Position numbers and translations under genes: made by a program
Notes under the pieces: model-generated
The model's database searches: none
Told to the model about the DNA's origin: nothing
The model's input: the letters and a program-made list of their open reading frames with translations, nothing else
Shown here: positions 1 to 61,927 of the stretch, one piece after another
Numbering within the stretch: the stretch's first letter is position 1
How the letters are laid out: every line of letters begins with the position of its first letter
Assembly: GCF_027484545.1 (NCBI RefSeq)
Contig: NZ_JAIXST010000247.1
Location: 1 to 62,446 of the forward strand
Origin: Runella sp.
Lineage (GTDB): Bacteria; Bacteroidota; Bacteroidia; Cytophagales; Spirosomataceae
Direction of reading: 5' to 3'
DNA length: 62,446 bases

Positions 1-241
1 CGATAGGACGTGATAACAGCTTCCGTCCCGGCGAGGGTCGTCCAACTCAAAGAAAAATTCAGCTACATTCATTTCCCAAAGGTCGGGCTAACTTACCACT
101 TCATGCAATTGCCCTACTTATCTAAAGATAAATTACTATCAAAATCAAAAGTTGTAAAGCACCATTGGGCAGTGCATGATCGGCGGGGAAGTTAAAAATA
201 TTGACAGCAAAAGGTATAATGCAGCTGCTTTCAAACTGTAT

Positions 242-1264
242 TCAGAAACGCGTTTTTGATAGCAAATCAATATTAATCACCGAGGTTGCAGCTTCAATCT
301 TTTTGCGCCACGCTTCTGGTGTAAATTGGCTCTTTTTTAAGTCTTTCAGGAAGGGAAAAATAGAATCAGTAGGCTTCTGTTTTGGCTTTCGGTAGAGGTT
401 CAAGATGTCGCCGGCCCTTTTGATGATCTTCTTACTCCTACTCTTTTGAGTTTTGCCGGCAGTATAATCAAGGCGCTCATTGACGATGTTGCTCCAGCGC
501 AATTGCAGTACGTCTGAAACCCGCATTCCCTGCATATAGAAGGCAAAAAGAAAGAAGTTTCGAGCGTGAAATTTGTTAGTGCCGGGTCGAAGGTCTAAGC
601 GTTCAAGTTGGGAAATCTGTGCTTCTGTAAGTCGTGTCCGTGAGGTCTTGGCTTTTTTGCCTTTGTAGCGCATCCAAGGCGACATTTTTTCAGGCTCAAA
701 CACTCCGGACCTAATAGCATCATTGTAGCAGGCTTTCAGGATTTCCAGGTTATTATGCACGGTATTGGTGACGTTTCCGAGCTTCACCAAGTAGCGTTCA
801 TAGTCCTTTATCCAATCGTAATCTATTTCAGGAAACAGCAGGTCTTTGCCCTTCAAATACACTTCCAACTTATTCAGGATGGCAATAGTGGTACTCTTAG
901 TGCTTGGGTTGGGAATCTTGCTTGCTCTTGTCCTACTGTATTCTAAGAAGCTCTCGCCCACTATCTCTTTTTTAAGTTGCTTTTGAAGCGTAGAGGCCGT
1001 TACTTTTTTGGTACCAAATTGGCCCTTCAAATACGTCGTTTCCCGTTCGAGCAACTTTGCTTTTATAGAGGTGTTTATTTGTGGGCAGTGTGGATGTCTC
1101 TTTCTTACTTCCTTCTTTTCATCGTTCCAATATTTCTTTTCAACGGAAGCTCCTACGGATACCCGAAGCATTTTTTTTGCCTGAGTGATCCGTATTTGAA
1201 TGTTTTGGGTACCGTCTTTTTTAACTCGGTTGTCCAATTCGACGTGAAAAGAAATCTTACTCAT
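242..1264 (-). pseudogene. tyrosine recombinase, C-terminally truncated (integrase relic)
   Basis: The 340-codon frame has the order of a Bacteroidota phage/ICE integrase: an arm-binding N-terminal domain (about 1-90), a SAM-like core-binding domain (about 100-200), and the start of the catalytic domain with the first catalytic Arg in MQGMRVSDVLQLRW and a GKTQKS segment. It stops after NIDLLSKTRF, before the HxxR, GH and nucleophile Tyr motifs that should follow. I found no continuation in the other minus-strand frames of 1-241. As it stands the protein should be unable to cleave DNA. It lies just outside the left att repeat of the neighbouring element, so it is probably left from an earlier integration at the same tRNA-Ser. 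A GATAGCAA motif at 258-265 sits at the break point. Confidence 0.75.
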
Positions 1265-1341
1265 AATTTCTTAAACTTTTACTGAAACTTTTTCTTAAAC
1301 TTTTCATTAGTGAGAGCAAGCCAAAACAAGCCAAAAAACAA

Positions 1342-1376
1342 AATAACCGCTTATACGTTGCGTACAAGCGGTTATT
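1342..1376 (-). terminator. hairpin with T-rich tail on minus strand
   Basis: An 11-bp perfect inverted repeat, AATAACCGCTT (1342-1352) and AAGCGGTTATT (1366-1376), with a 13-nt loop. On the minus strand it is followed by a TTGTTTTTTGG tract, as in a Rho-independent terminator. It lies 5' of the truncated integrase and would insulate it from transcription out of the element. Confidence 0.55.
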
Positions 1377-1490
1377 TGAGTTGTTTTAACAGGGTTAAAT
1401 CTGTTAAATGTGGACGTAACCGTGGTAATTTGACGTAACCGCAACCGTAACCGCGGATTAAGTTTTTGAAGATCAGAGGCTAAATAACAC

Positions 1491-1517
1491 AAAACCACCG
1501 CGTTAGAATCGCGGTGG
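1491..1517 (-). terminator. terminator of the XRE regulator transcript
   Basis: CCACCGCG (1495-1502) and CGCGGTGG (1510-1517) form an 8-bp GC-rich stem with a 7-nt loop. On the minus strand TTTT follows directly. The XRE gene ends about 200 nt before it, with the att repeat between them. Confidence 0.6.
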
Positions 1518-1538
1518 CCTCATTATCAATTGCTTCTG

Positions 1539-1552
1539 GCAGAGAGAGAGGG
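1539..1552. repeat. left attachment site (attL) of the tRNA-Ser element
   Basis: GCAGAGAGAGAGGG here is identical to 8489-8502, the 3' end of the tRNA-Ser gene. The two copies are direct repeats 6950 bp apart, and the integrase and replication genes lie between them, as expected after site-specific integration at a tRNA 3' end. The core is low complexity (AG repeats), so the exact crossover point cannot be fixed. Confidence 0.75.
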
Positions 1553-1724
1553 GTAAGAACTTAAAGGGTAACTTCCTATCAATCAGCGACTTATAAACCA
1601 AAAGACAAAATTTTTGTAGATGCCGTTACTGCGGTTGTTTATGCCAGGAATAAAAACCGCTTGTAGCATCCTGTCTATTAGATACTTAGCGCCGTAAACG
1701 CCAAAGTTTACGATAACGAATTTG

Positions 1725-2438
1725 TTATTTATTGGGTTCGTTACCTTCTATGTCATTTTCTAAACCTGTCGGCCTGTAATACACTAAAAAGCTTACATCC
1801 TCATACGATTCTCCAAACTTAGGGTCTTTAAACATATCCCTATTTCGTCTATACTTTCTTTTCAAGTGTGTTGACACTGTTAATAACTCCTCATCCGGTT
1901 CTTTATCATCTTCTACCAAATCCCAAATACGATTAATAACTATCTCAATAGCTTTTGACCAATATTCCTTCCAAGCGTATTCTTTCAATTTTAACGAATT
2001 GTAAGGAATACCCGACAATAATGGTATTAGCCATTTATTAGACTCAATGACCTGTACATAACTTTCTAATTTATCACTATGACCAACGGCTTCCGAAAGG
2101 GTTTCAAATACTAATTCCCTAAATATTTTTGCCTCGCGTTCGATTGCATCTATTTTAAACTGTTTATCCTTAACCCGGTCTTCCAGTTCTTCTACCCGCT
2201 TTACAAGTTCCGTTACCCGTTCATCATTTTCCACCGCTTCCGGCTCACCTGTCAGCAGTTCTACCACCGACACACCCAACGCCCCCGCTATACTTTCCAG
2301 TTGCTCAATAGTCAATTTCTCCCCTCTATTTTCTAAGCGGTGATAGTTTGACCTTTCCATATTTAAGGCATTGGCAACTTCTGACTGACTTAACTTTTTT
2401 GCCTCTCTGACCTCTTTTATTCTCTGAACTAATGACAT
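1725..2438 (-). CDS. XRE-family transcriptional repressor with coiled coil
   Basis: A 237-residue protein. Residues 1-65 form a classic XRE/Cro-C1 helix-turn-helix (KKLSQSEVANALNMERSNYHRLEN), then an acidic coiled-coil stretch (about 70-115) suited to oligomerisation, then a C-terminal region I do not recognise that may sense a signal or partner. No Ser/Lys peptidase dyad is evident, so it is not a LexA/CI-type self-cleaving repressor. It is transcribed away from the small HTH gene at 2587 and shares with it a 148-bp intergenic region with three direct repeats TTGYTATCRT, the likely operators. Probably the master switch of the element. Confidence 0.85.
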   Translation of the reverse strand: MSLVQRIKEVREAKKLSQSEVANALNMERSNYHRLENRGEKLTIEQLESIAGALGVSVVELLTGEPEAVENDERVTELVKRVEELEDRVKDKQFKIDAIEREAKIFRELVFETLSEAVGHSDKLESYVQVIESNKWLIPLLSGIPYNSLKLKEYAWKEYWSKAIEIVINRIWDLVEDDKEPDEELLTVSTHLKRKYRRNRDMFKDPKFGESYEDVSFLVYYRPTGLENDIEGNEPNK

Positions 2439-2492
2439 TTTATTATAAATGTTGATAAGAATTTACAAAGGTCAATAACTTATTAATAATTG

Positions 2493-2547
2493 TTGCTATC
2501 ATTATTTTATACAATTGTTATCATATAATTTGCTTTTTTGCTATCGT
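2493..2547. promoter_or_regulatory. operator array: three direct repeats TTGYTATCRT
   Basis: TTGCTATCAT (2493-2502), TTGTTATCAT (2515-2524) and TTGCTATCGT (2538-2547) recur with spacings of 22 and 23 bp, about two helical turns, so all three face the same side of the DNA. They lie between the divergent XRE and small HTH genes and overlap the rightward promoter. The natural ligand is the XRE protein or its divergent Cro-like partner. Confidence 0.6.
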
Positions 2548-2561
2548 ATTTTATAACTTTG
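2529..2561 (+). promoter_or_regulatory. Bacteroidota-type promoter for the rightward operon
   Basis: TTTG (2529-2532), a 21-bp gap and TAACTTTG (2554-2561) fit the TTTG/TAnnTTTG consensus. The start codon at 2587 lies 25 nt beyond. The third operator-like repeat falls between the two boxes, which suits repression. Confidence 0.55.
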
Positions 2562-2586
2562 TAGCCTCATACAAATCAATAATACT

Positions 2587-2793
2587 ATGGATACAATCTC
2601 ACTAACGACACTCAAGGCTGCAATTGATTCTTTTGAGGAGAGGAACCTTACAGAATTCAAGCCCAAACGCGCATTTTACGAACGAGTCGGAATCAACCGG
2701 ATCCGGTTTTGGCAACTCGTAGAAGGTAAAAAACGCCCCGACGTTGACGAAGCTCACCGTTTAGCCGAATATTTCGGCAAACCGCTTTTTTAA
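2587..2793 (+). CDS. small helix-turn-helix protein (Cro-like or excisionase-like)
   Basis: A 68-residue protein in which residues 25-66 (RAFYERVGINRIRFWQLVEG then VDEAHRLAEYFGKPLF) resemble a XRE-type HTH with the recognition helix around NRIRFWQL. It is divergent from the XRE repressor and upstream of the integrase, the position taken by Cro-like antirepressors or excisionases in temperate elements. A strong hairpin (2801-2834) separates it from the integrase. A precise family was not recognised. Confidence 0.7.
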   Translation: MDTISLTTLKAAIDSFEERNLTEFKPKRAFYERVGINRIRFWQLVEGKKRPDVDEAHRLAEYFGKPLF

Positions 2794-2800
2794 TATAGTA

Positions 2801-2834
2801 AAGCCCGCTCACTGTTTGCACCAGTGGCGGGCTT
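2801..2834 (+). terminator. strong hairpin between small HTH gene and integrase
   Basis: AAGCCCGC plus CACTG pair with CAGTG plus GCGGGCTT, with a single bulged T at 2809 and a 7-nt loop. There is no long T tract, so it may be an attenuator rather than a full terminator. It covers the GTG at 2824 and argues for the integrase start at 2875. Confidence 0.5.
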
Positions 2835-2874
2835 GTTAGTTTCTCCATGTTCCACTACAAACCATGTTAAAACC

Positions 2875-4161
2875 ATGTCAAAAGTACACAAAAGCCACTT
2901 AACAAACCACGTTCGGATAGCCGAACGCAACAAATCAAAAGCCCAACGGAATACCCTTTATGTTTCGTTTTGGGAACGAAAAAGCGAAGTAAAAGCTAAA
3001 ATAGAAGTAAGTATTGTAATGAAGCTAACTTACAACGGCAAGGTTAAAAACTACGCAACGGGGGTAATTTGCAAACGCGGCAACTTTGATAAAACAACCT
3101 TAAAGGTTACAAACAACCCCGTTGCTACGCTGATGCTCCAAGACCTACGGAACAAAATAAACGCCACCTATGCCGAACTACGGCTAACAGGTCGACCGAT
3201 TAACTTAGAAATTATTTGGCAGGTATCAAACGGGCAAATCCTAAATGCAAATATCCCCAATGTATTCGGATGCCTCACCCTATTTTTAGAGCAAATACAG
3301 GCCCAATATAAAACGGGTGAATTTACGTTTGCGGTCGTGGAGAAAGTAACCACTTGGAACGAACGTATAAAGGCGTATGTGGGTAAACACTACGGCAATA
3401 GCGCACACCTTGACGACATAACCCCGGCCGACGCCAAACGCTTCTTATTGTACCTAAAAACAGAGCACGAGTTTAGCCATAACTACGCGGCCGGAGTCGT
3501 TCAACACTTTAAAAGAGTGTTGAATTATGCCGTTGAAAATGAATGGATAACCCGAAATCCATTGATGAACTACCGGCGCAAGCTCGACAAAATAAAGGGC
3601 GAAATTTTGACCGAATCAGAGATGGACGCAATCCGAAGCTTTGAAATATTCGCCCCAACACTTGACCATATACGGCAAGCGTTTTTGCTGCAATGCTACA
3701 CCGGTTTGAGTTATGCCGAACTTGTCAGAGTCACGACTAACGACATTTTAAGGGACGATGTTACCGGGATGGAATACATCAAAATAGACCGCCAAAAAAC
3801 GGGTGTTCCTTCCATTGTACCGCTGAACGTAGAGGCTCAAAACATCATCGACCGTTTTAAAGACCACCCCCAACGTTTAAAAAAGGGCTTGCTAATGCCG
3901 ATCGTCAGCAATCAGAAATACAACATCTACTTAAAGCAATTGGCCGGGGTTATGGGTACAAAAAAACGCCTAACGTCGCACGTAGCCCGGCGGACGGCTG
4001 CAACCTACTACCTAACCAAAGGCGTGCCGATGGAATCAGTATCAGCTATGTTAGGTCATACAAACACGGTCACTACTCAACGGTCGTATGCCATAACCCG
4101 GTCCGAGCGCGTTATCAAGGATTTTATGAAAAATAACATTGAAGTCAGCAAAGCCCAATGA
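2875..4161 (+). CDS. tyrosine recombinase (integrase), IntDOT-like active site
   Basis: A 428-residue integrase if the ATG at 2875 is used; an upstream GTG (2824) falls inside a hairpin. The N-terminus is an arm-binding domain (about 1-100), then a SAM-like core-binding domain (about 125-230), then the catalytic domain. Visible catalytic residues are Lys308 (RQKTG), His369 and Arg372 (SHVARR), His395 (LGH) and Tyr405 (QRSY). The place of the first Arg is taken by Ser279 (TGLSYAEL). From family knowledge, the CTnDOT integrase of Bacteroides also lacks this Arg, so the protein is probably active. It would integrate and excise the element at tRNA-Ser. Its stop overlaps the next start by 4 nt. 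Confidence 0.9.
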   Translation: MSKVHKSHLTNHVRIAERNKSKAQRNTLYVSFWERKSEVKAKIEVSIVMKLTYNGKVKNYATGVICKRGNFDKTTLKVTNNPVATLMLQDLRNKINATYAELRLTGRPINLEIIWQVSNGQILNANIPNVFGCLTLFLEQIQAQYKTGEFTFAVVEKVTTWNERIKAYVGKHYGNSAHLDDITPADAKRFLLYLKTEHEFSHNYAAGVVQHFKRVLNYAVENEWITRNPLMNYRRKLDKIKGEILTESEMDAIRSFEIFAPTLDHIRQAFLLQCYTGLSYAELVRVTTNDILRDDVTGMEYIKIDRQKTGVPSIVPLNVEAQNIIDRFKDHPQRLKKGLLMPIVSNQKYNIYLKQLAGVMGTKKRLTSHVARRTAATYYLTKGVPMESVSAMLGHTNTVTTQRSYAITRSERVIKDFMKNNIEVSKAQ

Positions 4162-4346
4162 ACGTATGTCTGGAGTTCCCCGAACCGCCCGAAAACTTAG
4201 ACCCCGTCTTTCTTTTCGAGTCCTTACAATTTCATCGTTTGATACTACAGGAAGCCTTTGAGGAAATTTGGGATTTGCAGCAAAAAAACGGACAACTAAA
4301 AGCAAAATGCGAACGGCTTGTAAGTTTGATTTGCTCACACAACTAA
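4158..4346 (+). CDS. small acidic/helical protein of unknown function
   Basis: A 62-residue protein whose ATG overlaps the integrase stop (ATGA), which points to translational coupling. Residues 20-58 are predicted helical and rich in Leu, Glu and Lys (LQQKNGQLKAKCERL), compatible with a short coiled coil. It ends just before a terminator-like hairpin at 4351. It could be a directionality factor or a partner of the integrase, but no family is recognised. Confidence 0.55.
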   Translation: MNVCLEFPEPPENLDPVFLFESLQFHRLILQEAFEEIWDLQQKNGQLKAKCERLVSLICSHN

Positions 4347-4350
4347 TAAC

Positions 4351-4390
4351 AAACGGCCACGGGGGGATACCGTGGCCGTTTAATCATTTT
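4351..4390 (+). terminator. terminator after integrase/62-aa operon
   Basis: AAACGGCCACGG (4351-4362) pairs with CCGTGGCCGTTT (4370-4381) in a 12-bp stem and is followed by AATCATTTTT. It ends the integrase transcript and makes the vapE gene at 4430 a separate unit. Confidence 0.7.
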
Positions 4391-4429
4391 TAAACAAAAC
4401 TAAAAACTTCGTTTTAACTGTACAAAAGT

Positions 4430-5635
4430 ATGCAAAACACTGATAACAAACAAGTTAAAGGCAAAATTAATAAAATTGACGAATTAGAAAACTTCCTTTT
4501 AAGAAAGTACGAAGTTCGTGTAAACATCATCACTAACACCATTGAAAAACGGCAAAAAGGCAGCAAAGAAGCCTTTGAGTCAATCAATGATAGTGATTTA
4601 AAATACGAACTTTTTAAGGCAGGATACACCCGTTTTGATGGCGAGTTAAAAGCCATTTTAGGTTCTTCAATTATTCCCAAATACGACCCGTTCAAAGAAT
4701 ACTTTGAGAGTCTGCCAAATTGGACTAATTCAGAACCGGACTACATCCAAAAACTAACCGATTTTATTAAGACAGATGACCAAAAATGGTTTGAAGTCAT
4801 GTTTAAAAAAATGTTGGTCCGGGTTGTGGCGCAAGCGTTAGGCAGTACCCAATTTAATAAACATTGCTTCACCTTTGTAGGCAAGCAGCATGACGGAAAA
4901 ACGTCTTTTTTTGATTTCTTAGTCCCTCCTAAATTAAAGCCTTACTACAAGAAGGGATACGACTTTCACGGCGGTCGACAAAGCAAATTTTCCTTGGTCC
5001 AAAACTTCCTTATCAACCTTGATGAATTAGCCCAATTTGACAAAAAAGACCTTAACAACGAGTTCAAATCAACTCTTTCGGAAAGTGGCGTTAAATACGC
5101 TCCTTTATTCACAAATACAGAAGTTTTATTTGCCCGTCGAGCTTCCTTTGTAGCAAGTACAAATAATCCCGAATTCTTAACCGATGAAACGGGTTCAGTC
5201 CGTTGGGTAATCTTTACCGTGCTGAATATCAACCATGATAACGGAGGAAAGAACGGTTATTGCCAAATTGATATAAACAAAGTTTGGGCGCAAGCCTACA
5301 GCCTTTTAAAAGACGGCTATAAGTGCGAATTGTCCCACGACGATATAAACCAAACGGAGTTAATAAACCGAACCTATATGCGTATTACTTCCGAAATGAA
5401 ACTGGTTGCAAAGTACTTTAGAAGTGCCGATAAAACCGAACCCGAATCTAAGTTTTATACCTCCGTAGATGTTAAAGAATACCTTAGAGACAAAGGACAT
5501 TCTAATATCCATGAAATACAGGTAGGAAGGGCTTTAAGCAGTCTAAAATGGAAGCAGGAACAAAAGTATTTGAAAGAATATGGCTCCCAAAGAAAGGGTT
5601 ATTATTTAATTGAAAGTGAAAATCTACCTACTTAG
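4430..5635 (+). CDS. VapE/VirE-family replicative ATPase (SF3-like)
   Basis: A 401-residue protein matching the virulence-associated E family of phage satellites and Bacteroidota mobile elements. The Walker A motif is GKQHDGKTS (about 151-159) and a Walker B-like LINLDEL follows near 195-201; an ASTNNPEF segment fits sensor 1. The first 130 residues are not a recognisable primase, so priming may be done by the host. The C-terminal 90 residues look like a winged-helix DNA-binding tail. VapE proteins are linked to replication of satellite genomes, and here the final codons run into a dense array of 8-bp repeats, as in replicons whose initiator binds an adjacent origin. Confidence 0.85.
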   Translation: MQNTDNKQVKGKINKIDELENFLLRKYEVRVNIITNTIEKRQKGSKEAFESINDSDLKYELFKAGYTRFDGELKAILGSSIIPKYDPFKEYFESLPNWTNSEPDYIQKLTDFIKTDDQKWFEVMFKKMLVRVVAQALGSTQFNKHCFTFVGKQHDGKTSFFDFLVPPKLKPYYKKGYDFHGGRQSKFSLVQNFLINLDELAQFDKKDLNNEFKSTLSESGVKYAPLFTNTEVLFARRASFVASTNNPEFLTDETGSVRWVIFTVLNINHDNGGKNGYCQIDINKVWAQAYSLLKDGYKCELSHDDINQTELINRTYMRITSEMKLVAKYFRSADKTEPESKFYTSVDVKEYLRDKGHSNIHEIQVGRALSSLKWKQEQKYLKEYGSQRKGYYLIESENLPT

Positions 5636-5853
5636 TTACTTAGTTGCTTATAAATATCTAATTATCAGCAACTTAAACACCAAAATACTAAGTAAGATAC
5701 TACCTACTTAATCCTACTTAGTCTTACTTAGTTGTTTGGTCTCCGTTTATTAGTCTACTAAGTAAGATGGTTTATTCGGTTTTTCATCCTACTTACTTAG
5801 TCAAAACAACTGATAATCAACAATTTAACCCCTACTAAGTAACTAAGTAGGTA
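5625..5853. repeat. quasi-palindromic TACTTAGT iteron array, candidate replication origin
   Basis: Nine exact copies of TACTTAGT lie within 229 bp: plus orientation at 5629, 5637, 5715, 5725 and 5794, minus orientation at 5687, 5757, 5834 and 5842, with near matches at 5705 and 5790. The ends are a perfect 20-bp inverted repeat (5625-5644 against 5834-5853), each holding a tandem pair. ATTATCAG (5661-5668) and CTGATAAT (5810-5817) are inverted about the same centre (5739), 16 nt inside each end. The rest of the gap to 5993 is AT-rich and has no gene. It directly follows the VapE ATPase, whose stop codon lies within the first repeat. Confidence 0.75.
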
Positions 5854-5993
5854 AAAATCAAAAATTCTCTGCACCTTTTGCACAAAACCTATAAGCCGCA
5901 AAGGTCAAAAATTGTATAAAACCAAGATTGTAAGAGGTTTTACACCCCTACCCTAAAAGCCCGAAAAAGCTCACATTAAAAAGCTCAAATCAA

Positions 5994-6215
5994 ATGACAC
6001 AGACACAACAGGCCAAAGTAAAGTTTTACGTATTACGGCCAACAACCGATAATCCAAAAGCCACAAAACAACTAACGTTTAAAGTTGCCAATTTCGGTAA
6101 AGCCATCGAATGTATAAAAAGAGAGAAAGCTAAAGGCGAAATCATAACAGCCGCTTATTTTGAGGGCAATATCAGAGAGCGCAACATGAGAATCGAAAGT
6201 TATATGTATGATTAA
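5994..6215 (+). CDS. small protein of unknown function
   Basis: A 73-residue basic protein (VKFYVLRPTTDNPKATKQLT, then FGKAIECIKREKAKGEIITA) with a beta-rich start and one amphipathic helix. No domain is recognised. It lies between the TACTTAGT array and the GATAGCAA-bearing region, has no overlap with neighbours, and ends at a near-palindromic AT-rich stretch. Could be a small regulator or replication accessory protein; this is only positional inference. Confidence 0.55.
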   Translation: MTQTQQAKVKFYVLRPTTDNPKATKQLTFKVANFGKAIECIKREKAKGEIITAAYFEGNIRERNMRIESYMYD

Positions 6216-6274
6216 TAAGAGCTTTTTTAATATGAGCTTTTTGGCTTTTAGGGGATAGGTTTAAAAATCCCTGT

Positions 6275-6413
6275 TTGATAGCAAAAAAGAAGCTCGATTT
6301 TTCTGAAGCTGAAAAGCTGCACTATTTTTTGATAGCAAAAATAAATCAAATTGCGCTGAGGCCGTGCCGCTCCGGCGCCCATCATTAACCAAGGCAAACG
6401 AAAATGATAGCAG
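6275..6413. promoter_or_regulatory. three GATAGCAA motifs, second putative operator region
   Basis: TTGATAGCAA (6275-6284), TTGATAGCAA (6329-6338) and ATGATAGCAG (6404-6413, covering a start codon) are reverse complements of the repeats between the XRE and small HTH genes. Spacing here is looser (54 and 75 bp). The same regulator probably acts at both places. Confidence 0.5.
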
Positions 6414-6715
6414 AATCTAAAGATTTTAAAACAATTACCCTTAGAGGGCTTGAAGAAAAAAAGAACCTTGTGGAAATTATGAACAAGGTCATGCAAACCA
6501 AAGGACTAAAGACAGGTCAATCAGTCATTGAATTTATCATTTCTGACTATGGCCAAAAATTGGCCGAACTGGAAACAATAAAGGAGAAGCGAGAGGAAGA
6601 AAGAAAGAAATATTATAAATGGTCAAGCGAAAAAGAAGACACAATAGAAGAACTTTCGCTCATTCTAAGGACTATTAAAGGCGCATTTGCCCTACTACAT
6701 AAAGCAGAAGTGTAG
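6404..6715 (+). CDS. small RHH-like/coiled-coil protein
   Basis: A 103-residue protein. Residues 8-50 (ITLRGLEEKKNLVEIMNKVM, then TGQSVIEFIISDY) look like a ribbon-helix-helix fold, and residues 55-80 are a highly charged helix (ETIKEKREEERKKYYKW). RHH proteins in such elements serve as MobC-like relaxosome proteins, ParG-like partition proteins or repressors. No relaxase is present, so a partition or regulatory role is more likely. A GATAGCAG motif overlaps its start codon, and a good terminator follows at 6734. Confidence 0.6.
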   Translation: MIAESKDFKTITLRGLEEKKNLVEIMNKVMQTKGLKTGQSVIEFIISDYGQKLAELETIKEKREEERKKYYKWSSEKEDTIEELSLILRTIKGAFALLHKAEV

Positions 6716-6733
6716 AAGAACAACCGGCACATA

Positions 6734-6761
6734 ACACATTCATACAGAATGTGTTTTTTTT
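6734..6761 (+). terminator. Rho-independent terminator
   Basis: ACACATTC (6734-6741) pairs with GAATGTGT (6747-6754) across a 5-nt loop and is followed by seven or more T. It ends the 103-aa gene and separates the replication block from the ligase cargo. Confidence 0.75.
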
Positions 6762-7072
6762 ACTGTTAAATTACTGATAGTCAAAGCATTAAAATTACTT
6801 TACAATGCAATTTACAAATGAATTGCTGTTAAAAGTTAGTATTTTTTTTGGTTAATCGCCTGATAATCAATAAGAAGCAAAGTCAATAAAAAATATTTGC
6901 CTTGTTTCTCAGCCGAAGAAGCCCTGAAAGCACTGTAGAAAAGTGCAATTGCACCCCTTTCTTTTTTTGCGACATGTGAATTTTAGATTTCGAGCGGCTG
7001 TCGTTGACTTACTTTCCTTTTTCAAATGAATTCATCATTTCATTTTTGCTCACGAATAAAATAACATCTACA
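6762..7072. other. AT-rich intergenic region upstream of the ATP-grasp gene
   Basis: No gene seen. It contains a GCAATT...AATTGC inverted pair (6807-6826) and a perfect 12-bp palindrome GTGCAATTGCAC (6943-6954), sharing the GCAATT word. These are plausible regulator sites for the ligase operon. I could not assign a clear TAnnTTTG box. Confidence 0.4.
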
Positions 7073-8092
7073 ATGATGAAAGCATTGATTTTAGGAAATT
7101 TAGACAAGTCATTAGAAGTAGCGTTAAAACAGTCAGGCGTAAGCTATGAGGTTTATAAGCCCGACCAGCTAATGATTTATGTTAGTGAATCAACATCGGG
7201 CTACGATCGCTTTTTTGATGCGCGTTCGGAACTTCCCGAACCGGTCAGACTCAAAGCAAAAGACTTTGATTTTGTTATCTCACGAATTGGAAGCGGTGCC
7301 GAAAAAGGAGCAACCATTTTAGAGCATCTAACTGAAAACATGGGTTTGTTTGGTTCTCAAAATGCGGATGGTATCAGGATATGTTCTAATAAATTACGTA
7401 CCCATTTAAAGCTATCACAAAAAGGAATCAGAACACCCCCAACGGTTTGGGGTAATCGTATTGCTCATACTGATTTTGTATTCAAAAAACTGCTTGATAG
7501 TCTGCCGGCCGTTGGTAAAACATCATTAGGCAGTCAGGGCGAAGGAGTGTTTATTTTAGAAAGCCCATTGGCCGCAAATACGACGTTACAGACGCTTTAC
7601 AAGTTTGATGCTGACATTCTGCTACAAAAATTCATCAAAGGTGTAGGCTTTCAGGATGTACGCGCAATTGTGGTAAACGGGAAAGTAGTTTCGGCAATGG
7701 AACGGAGCGCACCAACGGGCGATTTTAGGGCGAATCTTTCGCAGGGCGGAAGCGGTCGTAAAATTGAACTATCAAACGATGACAAGGCAATTGCCGTGGC
7801 CGCTGCTGATGCCGTAGGATTAAGGGGTTTTTGTGGTGTTGACTTGCTGAAAGATAAAGATGGTAAAACCTACGTTGTTGAAACTAACTCTAATCCCGGT
7901 AGTCTGATATGTACAATAACGGGCTTTAACCATTTTATCCCGTTAGTAGAATATTGTAAGTCTAAAGGAAAGAAGCAGGAAACGAAAAATGAAGCGGCAG
8001 CAAATACGCAAAGCAAACAGCCTGTTAATTTCTGTGCAAAAACAATAATTGAGAATTATCGTAAAAATAACCCTCACCTTTTCCCATCTTAA
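7073..8092 (+). CDS. RimK-like ATP-grasp peptide/glutamate ligase
   Basis: A 339-residue ATP-grasp enzyme from the ATG at 7073 (a TTG at 7004 would add an unconvincing extension). RimK-family landmarks are in order: KTSLGSQGEGVF (phosphate-binding loop), DILLQKFIKG, DVRAIVVNGKVVSAMER, GDFRANLSQGG and GVDLLKDKDGK...ETNSNPG (metal-binding Glu/Asn). Such enzymes form amide bonds, for example adding Glu to ribosomal protein S6, or close omega-ester/amide rings in graspetides. The last 45 residues are a polar tail absent from RimK. It is the first gene of the right-end cargo and is separated by 8 nt from a 63-aa protein that is a candidate substrate. Codon use is as AT-rich as the rest of the element. 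Confidence 0.85.
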   Translation: MMKALILGNLDKSLEVALKQSGVSYEVYKPDQLMIYVSESTSGYDRFFDARSELPEPVRLKAKDFDFVISRIGSGAEKGATILEHLTENMGLFGSQNADGIRICSNKLRTHLKLSQKGIRTPPTVWGNRIAHTDFVFKKLLDSLPAVGKTSLGSQGEGVFILESPLAANTTLQTLYKFDADILLQKFIKGVGFQDVRAIVVNGKVVSAMERSAPTGDFRANLSQGGSGRKIELSNDDKAIAVAAADAVGLRGFCGVDLLKDKDGKTYVVETNSNPGSLICTITGFNHFIPLVEYCKSKGKKQETKNEAAANTQSKQPVNFCAKTIIENYRKNNPHLFPS

Positions 8093-8100
8093 ACTAAGCA

Positions 8101-8292
8101 ATGGATAATAGTAAAAATAATCAAAGTGAATCTCCGCCCAATCATCTAACAGTTGATAAAGAGGGTAATTGGTGGCTTCCTGATGGCACAATGTCTATTC
8201 ATTCACCAACTGCCAAAACTGACATATTGGTTACTAATTCCTTGAAAAGCATGCTTTCGGGTAATGCAAAACAAGTTCGTTTTAGGCATTAA
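8101..8292 (+). CDS. 63-aa protein coupled to the ATP-grasp ligase, candidate substrate
   Basis: Starts 8 nt after the ligase stop, so the two are almost certainly co-transcribed. It has a polar N-terminus, a conserved-looking KEGNWWLPDGTMSIH core (about 20-34) and a basic end (KQVRFRH). There is no signal peptide or membrane segment. No family is recognised. Its size and position are those of a peptide substrate of the upstream ligase, but it could equally be an accessory or immunity protein. Confidence 0.6.
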   Translation: MDNSKNNQSESPPNHLTVDKEGNWWLPDGTMSIHSPTAKTDILVTNSLKSMLSGNAKQVRFRH

Positions 8293-8298
8293 TTAGAA

Positions 8299-8391
8299 AT
8301 GAAGAATAAGCCCGAACATATATCCGTAATTATTCAAAGAATATTACAGGGGGCTGTTAAAAAGCCTTTAAAGCCCATAAGCGAAAAGTAA
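8299..8391 (+). CDS. 30-codon ORF after the ligase operon
   Basis: A possible 30-residue product (MKNKPEHISVIIQRILQG then AVKKPLKPISEK) starting 6 nt after the 63-aa gene. The composition (amphipathic helix then Lys/Pro tail) is protein-like and the spacing is operonic, but it is too short to be sure it is translated. Confidence 0.35.
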   Translation: MKNKPEHISVIIQRILQGAVKKPLKPISEK

Positions 8392-8393
8392 CC

Positions 8394-8434
8394 CGTTTAC
8401 GGCATTGGGAAAAAAGTAACGGCAATCGTTTACG
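8394..8434. repeat. CGTTTACG motifs at the right element end
   Basis: CGTTTACG occurs at 8394-8401 and 8427-8434, 55-95 bp from attR. The left end carries CGTAAACG and GTTTACG at 1693-1712, about 140 bp from attL. A motif found at both ends and reading in both orientations suits integrase arm sites or excisionase sites. Confidence 0.45.
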
Positions 8435-8449
8435 TCTTAAAATAAAAAA

Positions 8450-8477
8450 CCCTCAAAACGTTGATTTTGAGGGTTTT
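8450..8477. terminator. bidirectional terminator between element genes and tRNA-Ser
   Basis: CCCTCAAAA (8450-8458) pairs with TTTTGAGGG (8465-8473). T tracts follow on both strands (TTTT on plus, TTTTTTATTTT on minus). It would end the ligase operon and the tRNA-Ser transcript. Confidence 0.8.
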
Positions 8478-8488
8478 ACACAATTTTC

Positions 8489-8502
8489 GCAGAGAGAGAG
8501 GG
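8489..8502. repeat. right attachment site (attR) within tRNA-Ser
   Basis: GCAGAGAGAGAGGG, identical to 1539-1552. It spans the 3' acceptor strand and the start of the T arm of tRNA-Ser, so the element restores a complete tRNA on integration. Confidence 0.75.
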
Positions 8503-8574
8503 ATTCGAACCCCCGGACCTGTAACAGTCAACGGTTTTCAAGACCGCCGCATTCGACCACTCTGCCATCTCTCT
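8490..8574 (-). tRNA. tRNA-Ser(TGA)
   Basis: An 85-nt class II tRNA on the minus strand. The 7-bp acceptor stem is AGAGAGA/TCTCTCT with G discriminator, the anticodon loop is CTTGAAA (anticodon TGA), a long variable arm follows, and the T loop is TTCGAAT. CCA is not encoded. Its 3' end is the integration site of the 6.95-kb element. Confidence 0.95.
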
Positions 8575-8605
8575 AGTTTTCCCGCAACTCATTGTTTTGG
8601 GACTG

Positions 8606-8635
8606 CAAAGGTAGCGGTTTTTAGTTTCCTGTCAA
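8606..8635 (-). promoter_or_regulatory. tRNA-Ser promoter
   Basis: On the minus strand TTG (8633-8635), a 19-bp gap and TACCTTTG (8606-8613) match the Bacteroidota consensus; the tRNA begins 31 nt downstream. Confidence 0.6.
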
Positions 8636-8728
8636 GGGGTAAATGTGAAAATTTTATAAAAAAAACGACAATTTGATTCTCTTAAATACGTTTCGCGGAG
8701 CAAGAATTTGAGTATCAAACACTTAAAA

Positions 8729-9847
8729 CTATTCTAACGCCTGCGCCAAATCGGCAATTAAATCATCGACGTGCTCCAACCCAACTGAAATACGCAGTAA
8801 ATTCTTCGGACTGACCGAATGAACGCCTTCGGCAGTGGCTCGGTGTTCGATCAAACTCTCCACTCCTCCCAAGCTTGTAGCCCGAATAAACACCTTCACT
8901 TTACTTTTTACGACCAACGCCTCCTCAGCCCCGCCTTTCACCTGAATCGACAACATGCCTCCGCCTAATACCATCTGACGTTTGGCCACTTCATACCCGG
9001 CATGACTTTCTAAAAAAGGGTAATGTACCGCTTCCAGTTGAGGGTGGGTACTCAAAAATTCGGCCAGCTTAGTCGCATTTGCCGATTGCTGACGCACGCG
9101 CAAAGCCAACGTTTTGATTCCCCTCACAATCAGCCAACAATCGAACGGCGAAGGCACCGCCCCGCCCAATGCCTGAATTTGTCGCGCTTTTTCAGCTAAG
9201 GGGCCATTTTCTTTGAAAATCAACGCACCGCTCAGTAAATCGCTGTGTCCACCAAAATATTTCGTGGCCGAGTGCATGGAGACATCACACCCCAAATCCA
9301 ACGGGCGCTGCAAAACAGGGGTAGCCCAGGTATTGTCGCAGGCCGAATAAGCACCTTTAGCGCGGGCCAAGTCCGCAACGGCTTTAATATCCGTGATTTT
9401 CAACAACGGATTGGAAGGGGTTTCCATCCACACCAATTTGGTATTGGGTTGAAAGGCTTCTTCTACCGCGGCAAAGTTACTCATATCCACTTTTGTAAAT
9501 TGAAGTCCCCACAAACTCAACACCTCCTGCAACAACGCCGGCGTTCCGTAGTAGGCATCATCGGGCACAATGACGTGGTCACCCGGGAGCAGACACTGAA
9601 ATAAGGTGGTGGTAGCGGCCTGTCCAGAGGCAAACGCCATTCCTACCTGTCCGCCTTCAAGCACGGCATACGCACTTTCCAACGCATTGCGGTTGGGATT
9701 ACTTGCCCGGGTATAAATGTGCCCGTGCGGCATACTGCTGTCGGGTTCGCGCTCAAAGGTCGTAGAAAGATAAATGGGTGGTACTACTGCACTCGCATTA
9801 GCGTCGTGAAATTGAGTGCTTTGAATGGCAAGGGTTTCAAAATTCAT
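8729..9847 (-). CDS. cystathionine gamma-synthase/lyase family PLP enzyme
   Basis: A 372-residue member of the Cys/Met metabolism PLP-dependent family, full length for the group. The PLP Lys lies in SATKYFGGHSD, and upstream are YTRASNPN, ASGQAATTT and the DNTWATP segment whose Asp contacts the pyridine nitrogen. The C-terminal ATSLGGVESLIEHR is typical of gamma-synthases and gamma-lyases. It would act in transsulfuration between cysteine, homocysteine and methionine. Synthase and lyase activities cannot be told apart from sequence alone. It is a single gene convergent with the tRNA-Ser region, ATG start at 9847. Confidence 0.9.
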   Translation of the reverse strand: MNFETLAIQSTQFHDANASAVVPPIYLSTTFEREPDSSMPHGHIYTRASNPNRNALESAYAVLEGGQVGMAFASGQAATTTLFQCLLPGDHVIVPDDAYYGTPALLQEVLSLWGLQFTKVDMSNFAAVEEAFQPNTKLVWMETPSNPLLKITDIKAVADLARAKGAYSACDNTWATPVLQRPLDLGCDVSMHSATKYFGGHSDLLSGALIFKENGPLAEKARQIQALGGAVPSPFDCWLIVRGIKTLALRVRQQSANATKLAEFLSTHPQLEAVHYPFLESHAGYEVAKRQMVLGGGMLSIQVKGGAEEALVVKSKVKVFIRATSLGGVESLIEHRATAEGVHSVSPKNLLRISVGLEHVDDLIADLAQALE

Positions 9848-10012
9848 TGATTATTAGACATTTATACAGTAACTACTCAAACTGTTTGATCGTACTCTAT
9901 TTCCATTTTTAGAGTTCTACTATTCTTAACTCCTTTTTCCGCAAATCCGTTTTCCATTTTCCTGAAAAAAATCGAATTAGAAGGGGCTATCTACAATTTT
10001 ACACCAATTCTT

Positions 10013-59943: not shown

Positions 59944-60017
59944 GGCGGGGTAGCTCAGATGGTTAGAGCGTAGGATTCATAACCCTAAGGTCGGCAGTTC
60001 GATCCTGCTCCCCGCTA
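59944..60017 (+). tRNA. tRNA-Met(CAT)
   Basis: A 74-nt tRNA with acceptor stem GGCGGGG/CCCCGCT (one G-T pair), D arm TAGCTCAGATGGTTAGAGC, anticodon loop TTCATAA (CAT) and T loop TTCGATC. A CAT anticodon could also be the lysidine-modified Ile tRNA; elongator Met is the simpler reading. A P4-type integrase follows its 3' end. Confidence 0.92.
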
Positions 60018-60030
60018 CACTGACTATCAG

Positions 60031-60241: not shown

Positions 60242-61420
60242 TCATCGTGCTTTGTCAATATAATCCGCATATTCCTGCATCATTTTTATACGTTGCGGCA
60301 AAAACTGTGCGCGGTCATAAGCGCGATCAACACCACTTTTCGGGACGTGCGCGAGTTGTCTATCGGCAATATCATGAGGGTAGCCCAATTTTTCTTTTAA
60401 TATCCCTAAGGCCAGGGATCGAAATCCATGACCTGTCATTTTACCATTATAGCCCATCCGCTTGATAGCAATAAGCATCGTGTTTTTGCTCATATACTTT
60501 CTTGGGTTGTAATAGCCGGGAAAGATGAATTCCCGTTTTGAATTCATTTCTTTCAACTCCCGAAAAATCGCCAGCGACTGTTGCGATAACGGGATCATAT
60601 GTGGAAGGTTCATCTTCATCCGTTCAGCAGGGATAACCCACATCGCTTTGTCAAAATCTATCTCTTCCCATCTTGCTTCGACAAGTTCACATGTTCGCAC
60701 AAATGTGAGAAGCAATAATTTTAGAGCCAGAAAGGTCTGACGATTAACATGATTCTCATAACCATTGAGACAGGATAAAAATTGAGGAAACTCATCGACA
60801 GAAATAGATGCGTAATGCCCTCTTTTAAATTTTTTCATCGCAGCCTCTAAGCCATAAGTAGGGTCACTCTCTGCCCTGCCGGTAGCAATGGCATATTTAA
60901 ATACGTGGCTGCATACGGCCTTCATTCTACGAGAAAGATCAGGGGCTGTTTTTTCAATCTTTTGAAGGCAGTTCAGCATCATCAGCGGCTTTATATCTGC
61001 CAGCGGAAAACTGCCCAAAGACGGAAATATATACTTCTCAAAACGGTGTTTAATGATATTGGCATGTTTTGGGTTCCACAAAGGAATCTGCTTCCCATAC
61101 CATTCCATGGCCATTGATTTAAAATCCAGTTTTTGGGTCAAAGCCTGCGTCTGAGCAGCCTGCAAACGTTTCAAGACGGGATCAATACCAACCTTTATTT
61201 CTTTTTTTAACTCATCCTTCGCCTTACGGGCATCCGCTATTGAAACAGCGGGGTATGCACCGATTGAAATTCGTTTTTCCCTTCCATGGATTCGATATTT
61301 CAACCGCCAATATTTGGTCCCGCTCGGGGTGACTTCAAGGTATAACCCTTCCCCGTCTGCCATCTTATAAGGCTTGATTTTAGGTTTCGCTACCTGACAG
61401 GTCATATTTGATAAAGCCAT
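60242..61420 (-). CDS. P4-type tyrosine recombinase (integrase)
   Basis: A 392-residue integrase from the ATG at 61420 (an ATG at 61456 would add 12 residues). N-terminal DUF4102 domain (about 1-90, KMADGEGLYLEVTPSGTKYW), central SAM-like domain, and catalytic core with FVRTCELVEARWEEID (Arg), TGHGFRSLALGIL (HxFR), RQLAH and DRAYDRAQFL (Tyr). P4-type integrases insert in tRNA 3' ends. The gene reads back toward tRNA-Met, so it belongs to an element that starts at 60018 and leaves the window on the right. Confidence 0.92.
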   Translation of the reverse strand: MALSNMTCQVAKPKIKPYKMADGEGLYLEVTPSGTKYWRLKYRIHGREKRISIGAYPAVSIADARKAKDELKKEIKVGIDPVLKRLQAAQTQALTQKLDFKSMAMEWYGKQIPLWNPKHANIIKHRFEKYIFPSLGSFPLADIKPLMMLNCLQKIEKTAPDLSRRMKAVCSHVFKYAIATGRAESDPTYGLEAAMKKFKRGHYASISVDEFPQFLSCLNGYENHVNRQTFLALKLLLLTFVRTCELVEARWEEIDFDKAMWVIPAERMKMNLPHMIPLSQQSLAIFRELKEMNSKREFIFPGYYNPRKYMSKNTMLIAIKRMGYNGKMTGHGFRSLALGILKEKLGYPHDIADRQLAHVPKSGVDRAYDRAQFLPQRIKMMQEYADYIDKAR

Positions 61421-61927
61421 TTTACAACCTCTGATTCGAGTTGCTGAGAATTTCAATAGCCATGGGCAATTTCATGCCCCCAATCATGCCCCCAACTTTG
61501 GTTACTGTGGGTATATGATAGGAATATATTGATAAAGTCGTTATAACATTAACGTGTTGCGAAAATTGAATAATTCGCATTTTGGTAATGATAAATAATG
61601 TCAGTAAAAAAATGATTGGTGCCCGTAGCCGCATAGACATTTTCTCTCCAAGTGCCTGAACTGGCTACGATTGAAACGGATTATTATTCTGAGTGCCCCC
61701 AATGATGCCCCCAAAGACTGATAATGTCCGTGTAACATATATTATCATCCGGCTATTCTTTATGCAACTAATCCTTTCACCTTGATGCATGGTCAAAAAA
61801 GCTGCCGATGCCATGTTTAAGCTATAATCAGGCCGAATTTTAAAAGAATTAAGCATGATATTTCAATACAATAAATAACTGACCAATCTTAAAAAGGACC
61901 TTTTACAGAGGTAAGCTTTAATATTTA

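Follow-up and report, generated by a model that had tools for sequence, protein, structure and literature searches.

A candidate PICI-type replication origin 3' of a VapE-type helicase gene in a tRNA-integrated mobile element of Runella sp.

An array of oriented 8-bp repeats (iterons) located directly 3' of a VapE-type helicase gene (rep) in Runella sp. is, on comparative sequence evidence, very probably a replication origin of the kind found in phage-inducible chromosomal islands (PICIs), here serving a small mobile element integrated at a tRNA gene. The PICIs with the matching origin layout are phage satellites of E. coli, which belongs to a bacterial group distant from that of Runella. The array lies in contig NZ_JAIXST010000247.1, of which the whole 62,446-nucleotide stretch was analysed (the window). 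The array is read as an origin because such arrays recur 3' of rep and not in control stretches, because different iterons keep the same layout, because the tested origin of the Escherichia coli element EcCICFT073 has the same layout, because iteron distance tracks the C-terminus of Rep and not its N-terminus or the integrase, because sites like those of integration host factor (IHF) are enriched in the arrays, because the best fold match of Rep is PriRep1 with dsDNA (7pds), and because SaPI Rep uses its C-terminal domain on downstream iterons, as given in the available part of PMC7581432.

The repeat TACTTAGT is present as nine exact copies within positions 5629-5849 (starts at 5629, 5637, 5687(-), 5715, 5725, 5757(-), 5794, 5834(-) and 5842(-)) and has no other copy in the window, in agreement with the nine-copy array described in the initial annotation. 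A chance origin of the nine copies is ruled out by 100 shuffles, in which the mean was 1.25 copies and the highest count 5. In the 7.1-Mb assembly, five occurrences of the 16-bp tandem pair were found, two at the window array and three at that of a second copy, located on another contig; the reversed control does not occur there at all. Positions 5625-5644 (TACCTACTTAGTTACTTAGT) are the exact reverse complement of 5834-5853, which confirms the perfect 20-bp inverted repeat noted earlier at the two ends. The inner pair, ATTATCAG (5661-5668) and CTGATAAT (5810-5817), shares the axis of this inverted repeat at 5739, also as noted earlier, and overlaps the two IHF-consensus-like sites listed in Table 1. 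The stop codon of the VapE gene (TAG, 5633-5635) was likewise found where it had been placed, inside the first 8-mer. The inverted arms of 44 nt (5625-5668 and 5810-5853) are 80% complementary. Copies with one mismatch, such as TACTTAAT at 5705-5712, appear to be members of the array. When TACTTAGT on the plus strand is written as '<' and on the minus strand as '>', the layout is << > <<< | > < >>, that is, two roughly mirrored iteron sets. The AT content is 0.62-0.78 across the whole array (40-bp steps), without a clear peak. An RNA structure was rejected as the identity of the array; in positions 1-10000, only tRNA reaches the gathering score.

Table 1. Features of the element and of its proposed origin (window positions)
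Feature	Position	Strand	Evidence
Att-like direct repeat, left element end, GCAGAGAGAGAGGG	1539..1552	.	Repeat and empty site in G012 (L218)
Xre/HTH repressor-like regulator	1725..2438	-	PF01381 5.8e-10
Small HTH-like protein, xis/AlpA-like by position alone	2587..2793	+	PF01381 0.049, below cut-off; similar ORF in same slot in L074-L077
Tyrosine integrase, start codon uncertain	2824..4161	+	PF00589 1.8e-15
Rep, VapE-type helicase, 401 aa	4430..5635	+	PF05272 3.2e-30; phrog_1313 4.2e-40
Proposed replication origin, oriented iteron array	5625..5853	.	Comparative evidence
Left outer iteron pair (<<), 8 bp apart	5625..5644	+	
Left IHF-consensus-like site TATCAGCAACTTA	5663..5675	+	Consensus match
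Inward iteron (>)	5687..5694	-	
Left inner triplet (<<<), 10-bp spacing, first copy (5705-5712) with one mismatch	5705..5732	+	
Right inner iteron (>)	5757..5764	-	
Right inward iteron (<)	5794..5801	+	
Right IHF-consensus-like site AATCAACAATTTA	5815..5827	+	Consensus match
Right outer iteron pair (>>)	5834..5853	-	
Small ORF 3' of array	5994..6215	+	Similar-looking ORFs in L074 and L075; no family match
Small ORF	6404..6715	+	Similar-looking ORFs in L004 and L075; family matches below cut-off only
RimK-type ATP-grasp cargo gene, start codon uncertain	7004..8092	+	PF08443 5.9e-35
Right att-like repeat, 3' end of tRNA-Ser(tga) (8489-8574)	8489..8502	.	Repeat and empty site

The mobile element that carries the array is 6.95 kb long (about 1539-8502) and is integrated at tRNA-Ser. 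The 14-bp direct repeat at 1539 and 8489 is a copy of the 3' end of the tRNA gene. Of 11 same-genus loci that contain the right flank, one (in genome G012) shows an empty site: its left flank (window 1480-1560) joins the tRNA side (8485 onward) directly. In the other ten loci, similarity begins at 8442-8489 and the left flank has no match. Three relatives have the same type of end, at tRNA-Arg (18 bp) and tRNA-Ser (13 and 14 bp). The gene order is repressor, small HTH-like protein, integrase, a small ORF in some cases, Rep, array and variable genes. The PICI-type features present in the whole element include an integrase, a divergent repressor, xis (by position only), rep, ori and site-specific integration. 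Neither a primase gene or domain nor a packaging gene (terS or capsid) was detected among the ten window proteins scanned against family profiles; therefore, the rep/ori module, and not the whole element, is classed with the PICIs.

The variable genes of the relatives include defence-like cargo. L077 contains a Drt2-like reverse transcriptase and an AAA-type gene with several defence-family matches (6990-8468 and 284-1795), and L075 contains a GmrSD-like gene (951-2741). In the window (7004-8292), the RimK-type ATP-grasp gene is followed by a 63-aa ORF, and an ATP-grasp gene with a short neighbouring ORF is also found in L074 and L075; this pair is possibly peptide-modifying cargo. A second element of the same genome (G000:C241, L074), located at tRNA-Arg, has the same iteron word and a Rep that is 73% identical, and cross-activation or incompatibility between the two elements is possible. 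A further tyrosine-integrase gene is located at window 242-1264, and an integrase-like ORF was recognized by eye at 60242-61456, near tRNA-Met (59944-60018); these two genes perhaps mark neighbouring elements.

Rep homologues were identified in 73 of the 222 genomes of the family and in 64 of 390 genomes sampled from the order, own family included. The most frequent 8-mer was counted in matched 360-bp stretches for the 101 homologues with enough 3' DNA. Directly 3' of rep (-30 to +330 bp of the stop), at least four copies were found at 59/101 homologues, compared with 0/100 in the 5' stretch, 0/101 inside the gene and 4/96 at 400-760 bp 3'. The remaining 42 fall below this strict count. A cut on motif score and Rep length is passed by 74 of the 101; the other 27, with an array score under 9 or a Rep under 380 aa, were dropped before the covariation tests. 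Absence of the array from homologous VapE elements would have spoken against the candidate origin proposed in the initial annotation for the adjoining VapE protein. Instead, the proposal gains support from the comparison, since repeats are present at 59 of 101 homologues by the strict count and at 74 by motif score and Rep length.

The position of the array between rep and the next gene also suits a multi-operator for the downstream genes, bound by the element repressor or by an autoregulating Rep; the window element encodes an HTH repressor-like protein, and similar-looking ORFs are present in L074-L077. This explanation is improbable. The repeats of at least four copies lie 3' and not 5' of rep, and the genes downstream of the array differ, with a CHC2/Toprim primase in L013 and L076 and small ORFs in the window and L075. 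Furthermore, about ten sites in a set layout over some 210 bp would be unusual for an operator.

The same arrangement has been detected in phage, plasmid and viral-contig relatives, for which 69 of 87 loci were used (the rest were duplicates, had too short a 3' stretch or gave no usable match). At least four copies of an 8-mer were found 3' of rep in 37/69, in the gene in 0/69 and further 3' in 1/66. The Bacteroidota phages FPSV-S1, lotta8-1 and phi18:1 (L205, L206 and L207) contain their own repeats 3' of VapE, GGTTACAC, ATTGGAAC and AGTGACCA, respectively, which lie in a gap of about 245-300 bp after the gene; eight copies of GGTTACAC are present in Flavobacterium phage FPSV-S1. No array was found by the 8-mer count in a Cardinium plasmid locus (L208), Bacteroides (L210) and Prevotella (L211), and no iterons were evident by eye after the VapE-like gene of E. 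coli plasmid pSCU-121-2. Two longer homologues, L116 and L117 (731 and 741 aa), have TGGTGAC-type repeats 3' of the gene, so the arrangement extends past the short Reps. A stretch like CCGCTAAAAGAAA is located 3' of the array, right before the next gene, in L013, L016 and L058, for example, and words of 8 and 9 letters from it recur in 13-18 of 74 regions.

The iteron word varies between arrays, and the layout is kept. The words include CTAAGTAA, CCGAGTA, TCGAGTAA, TCAGGTAA, TGTAGTAA, TGTTGTAA, GGTAGTAA and others, most of them with a GTA core; the motif run used 9-mer seeds with a central GT and is therefore biased towards this register. Among the 64 arrays with a score of 15 or more, outward-facing outer pairs were found in 51, with a median span of 210 bp. 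The left half commonly has sites near 0<, 8<, 51-63>, 75<, 86< and 95<. The number of sites per array is 6-14, and the commonest total is 12 (12/51 arrays).

The layout also matches that of an origin that has been tested. According to the available part of PMC6092414, the PICI origin is located immediately 3' of the initiator gene and consists of two iteron sets that flank an AT-rich region. In that source, a test plasmid with rep and ori of EcCICFT073 gave colonies and the rep mutant gave none, and deletion of ori significantly lowered the colony number. EcCICFT073 (E. coli CFT073, L226) was found to contain eleven GGTAGA sites 3' of rep in the order << > <<< >> < >>. Relative to the second left site, these are at 46>, 68<, 79<, 88<, 119>, 130>, 152<, 198> and 207>, and those of the window are at 55>, 68<, 78<, 88<, 125>, 157<, 202> and 210>; three extra window calls (8<, 33< and 258>) have no counterpart in EcCICFT073. 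Against a profile of 61 Bacteroidota arrays, the EcCICFT073 array scores 3.21, a value reached by 3 random placements and 143 strand shuffles out of 20,000 each. Its right-half sites fit the profile less (0.15-0.28 per site) than the left (0.33-0.72).

Six more E. coli loci complete a set of seven. L227 has the same pattern as CFT073, with 11 GGTAGA sites. L229-L232, which are close relatives and were thus counted as one case, have 11 GGTGAA sites in the order << > << >>> < >>, and an exact match to the IHF consensus falls in the gap that separates their left outer pair from the first inward iteron. In L228 (E. coli cq9), the half-origins 3' of a primase-family gene are reversed (>>> >> before << > <<<) and are followed by a partial helicase RepA-like gene. 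The remark in the initial annotation that no named origin was known with this arrangement calls for revision, since the layout match with CFT073 and the further E. coli loci place it in E. coli PICI origins. Since arrays with different words keep one oriented layout, both within the order and in E. coli, it is scarcely conceivable that the repeats are a non-functional relic of tandem duplication, as the direct 8-bp tandems of the outer pairs might suggest.

The motif WATCARNNNNTTR, which we take to be the E. coli IHF consensus, was used to search the arrays for bend sites. With this consensus, 77 sites were found in 51/74 arrays (shuffles gave a mean of 3.4 sites and a maximum of 9), compared with 2/73, 1/74 and 5/70 in matched controls. 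No exact site is present in 23/74 arrays and in three of the seven E. coli loci. In 35 of the 73 arrays with a called left pair, a site lies 10-45 bp from the second left iteron, and 16 of these 35 are exactly 28 bp away on the same strand. The 77 sites extend to the near-palindrome TAA-N4-YTGATWATCAR-N4-TTA; T at -4, found in 72/77, was not imposed by the search. A single match to PF00216 (HU/IHF) was obtained in this genome, and together with the palindromic pattern it suggests that a Bacteroidota IHF/HU homodimer may act on the palindromic site. Iterons combined with host bending sites are also known from centromeres, and a centromere-like partition site was considered for the array. This reading was rejected as very unlikely; the ten proteins scanned include no recognizable partition protein, and the layout matches that of the tested origin.

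Rep fits the class of D5/VapE self-loading helicases by family and fold. Its Walker A motif is GKQHDGKT, from G151. In the predicted structure (AF2, pLDDT 92.4), the C-terminus (about 319-395) is winged-helix-like, with helices at 345-354 and 362-371 and wing strands at 376-381 and 386-395. The best Foldseek match is 7pds, PriRep1 with dsDNA (TM 0.69 on chain F; about 14% identity in the structural alignment), and a profile of 81 Rep relatives also finds 7pds (E 1.9e-26). We take PriRep1 to be probably a SaPI-type Rep.

The repeat word covaries with the C-terminal winged helix of Rep, above all its wing, and not with the integrase. Partial Mantel tests were performed on 74 arrays (1885 close pairs, 2701 pairs in all). 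Among close pairs, iteron distance was correlated with the Rep C-terminus given the helicase (partial r 0.32, p 0.002) and with the wing (0.36, p 0.002); the values for the helicase given the C-terminus and for the N-terminus were 0.08 (p 0.07) and -0.05 (p 0.84), respectively. Over all pairs, the C-terminus gave 0.27 (p 0.002) and the helicase given the C-terminus still gave 0.16 (p 0.004). Between the Reps of the window and L013, 25% of helicase positions and 74% of C-terminal positions differ, and so do their iterons. An integrase is encoded upstream in 41/74 loci, of which 36 were long enough and were used as a control (630 pairs). With Rep helicase divergence removed, the integrase gave a partial r of 0.02-0.03 (p 0.33-0.38) vs 0.34-0.36 (p 0.001) for the Rep C-terminus. 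In this comparison of Rep and integrase, the tracking of the Rep C-terminus by the repeats also speaks against an operator.

Integrase arm sites together with IHF sites make up the known anatomy of phage attP, and an integrase is encoded near the array. Recombination at such a site is nevertheless a very remote prospect here, and the attP reading was rejected on two grounds: the element ends are about 3-4 kb away, at tRNA-Ser, and the repeats do not follow integrase divergence in the control.

In a column scan over residues 15-396, with residue classes chosen by the analyst and 63 to 71 rows with a defined letter at the tested position, the top two columns were Q387 and Y380 for N2, Y380 and Q387 for N3, and S386 and Q387 for N4, all located in the wing. 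Non-wing columns near the top were K40 (0.58) and D204 (0.57) for N2, D204 (0.56) for N3 and N36 (0.44) for N4, and N1 gave no wing signal. In the residue tests, for which the register of 11 arrays was set by hand after the Rep table had been seen, so that this step was not blind, residue 380 is R/K in 34/35 with N3=T, Y/W in 18/22 with N3=G and Y in 7/12 with N3=A. After correction for descent, the independent pairs for N3=T with R/K at 380 were 5 same, 0 opposite and 1 without difference (p 0.0625). The aromatic version of this test gave p 0.5, and N4=G with R/K at 376 gave p 0.25. The covariation points to a C-terminal domain that probably reads the iteron DNA.

If the array is the origin, replication would proceed as follows. 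After excision, the VapE-type Rep would bind the 8-bp iterons via its C-terminal winged helix, with the wing strands reading the variable half of the repeat. Bending would come from a host protein of the IHF/HU type that acts at one site next to each outer iteron pair, on its inner side. With iterons oriented as 2-1-3 in the left half and as a rough mirror image in the right half, Rep would be set in two opposed groups, which would melt the DNA and start replication. These groups are perhaps two hexamers, a loose fit because the site totals vary from 6 to 14. Rep binding, bending at two sites and two opposed helicases would fit both the results and the SaPI precedent in the available part of PMC7581432.

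A more general proposal is put forward tentatively, and its chances are judged to be somewhat below even. Satellite-type elements from E. coli to Bacteroidota may share a blueprint, 2-[bend]-1-3 / 3-1-[bend]-2, for two opposed Rep hexamers, in which the 8-bp word is free and is set by wing residues 380, 386 and 387, so that specificity could be read from Rep; in Bacteroidota, a homodimeric IHF/HU would act on the near-palindrome given above.

The string 'bacteroid' is absent from the text of PMC6092414. A literature search that covered VapE replication origins in Bacteroidetes and satellite primase or replication in Bacteroidota returned nothing, and one on PICIs in Bacteroidetes gave seven papers. 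If the reading is correct, the PICI-type origin is carried to Bacteroidota in site-by-site detail, and tens of natural Rep/iteron pairs become available in which the word changes on a constant scaffold. Origin recognition by a self-loading helicase, and the possible loading of two hexamers by opposed iteron groups, would then be open to direct test. Looking 3' of VapE-type genes would also be a simple way to find such elements.

Several known systems resemble the proposed origin. The iteron plasmid origins of pSC101 and R6K, which contain IHF sites, share with the array the combination of iterons and a bend site, but they differ in having another initiator fold and iterons that are mostly direct repeats. 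The putative origin of SCCmec Cch2 consists of direct repeats located in the intergenic spacer that follows the helicase gene, and the isolated C-terminal domain of Cch2 binds this region, but only three iterons are present, according to the available part of PMC7581432. In Staphylococcus, SaPI Rep is a self-loading helicase whose C-terminal domain is used on iterons directly downstream of its own gene (same part of PMC7581432); the likeness lies in the protein and in the place of its iterons, and the identity to the window Rep is that of the structural alignment. The Gram-negative PICI origins of E. coli have iterons immediately 3' of a primase-family/helicase gene in the same oriented layout, with 286-289 bp to the next gene in L226, L227 and L229-L232. 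They differ in the iteron word and in their longer proteins (582-606 residues vs 401 aa); the L226 protein matches D5_N, DUF5906 and Pox_D5, whereas the window Rep matches the VapE family. Many Bacteroidota arrays differ further from the E. coli PICI origins in having IHF-like, near-palindromic sites at both ends.
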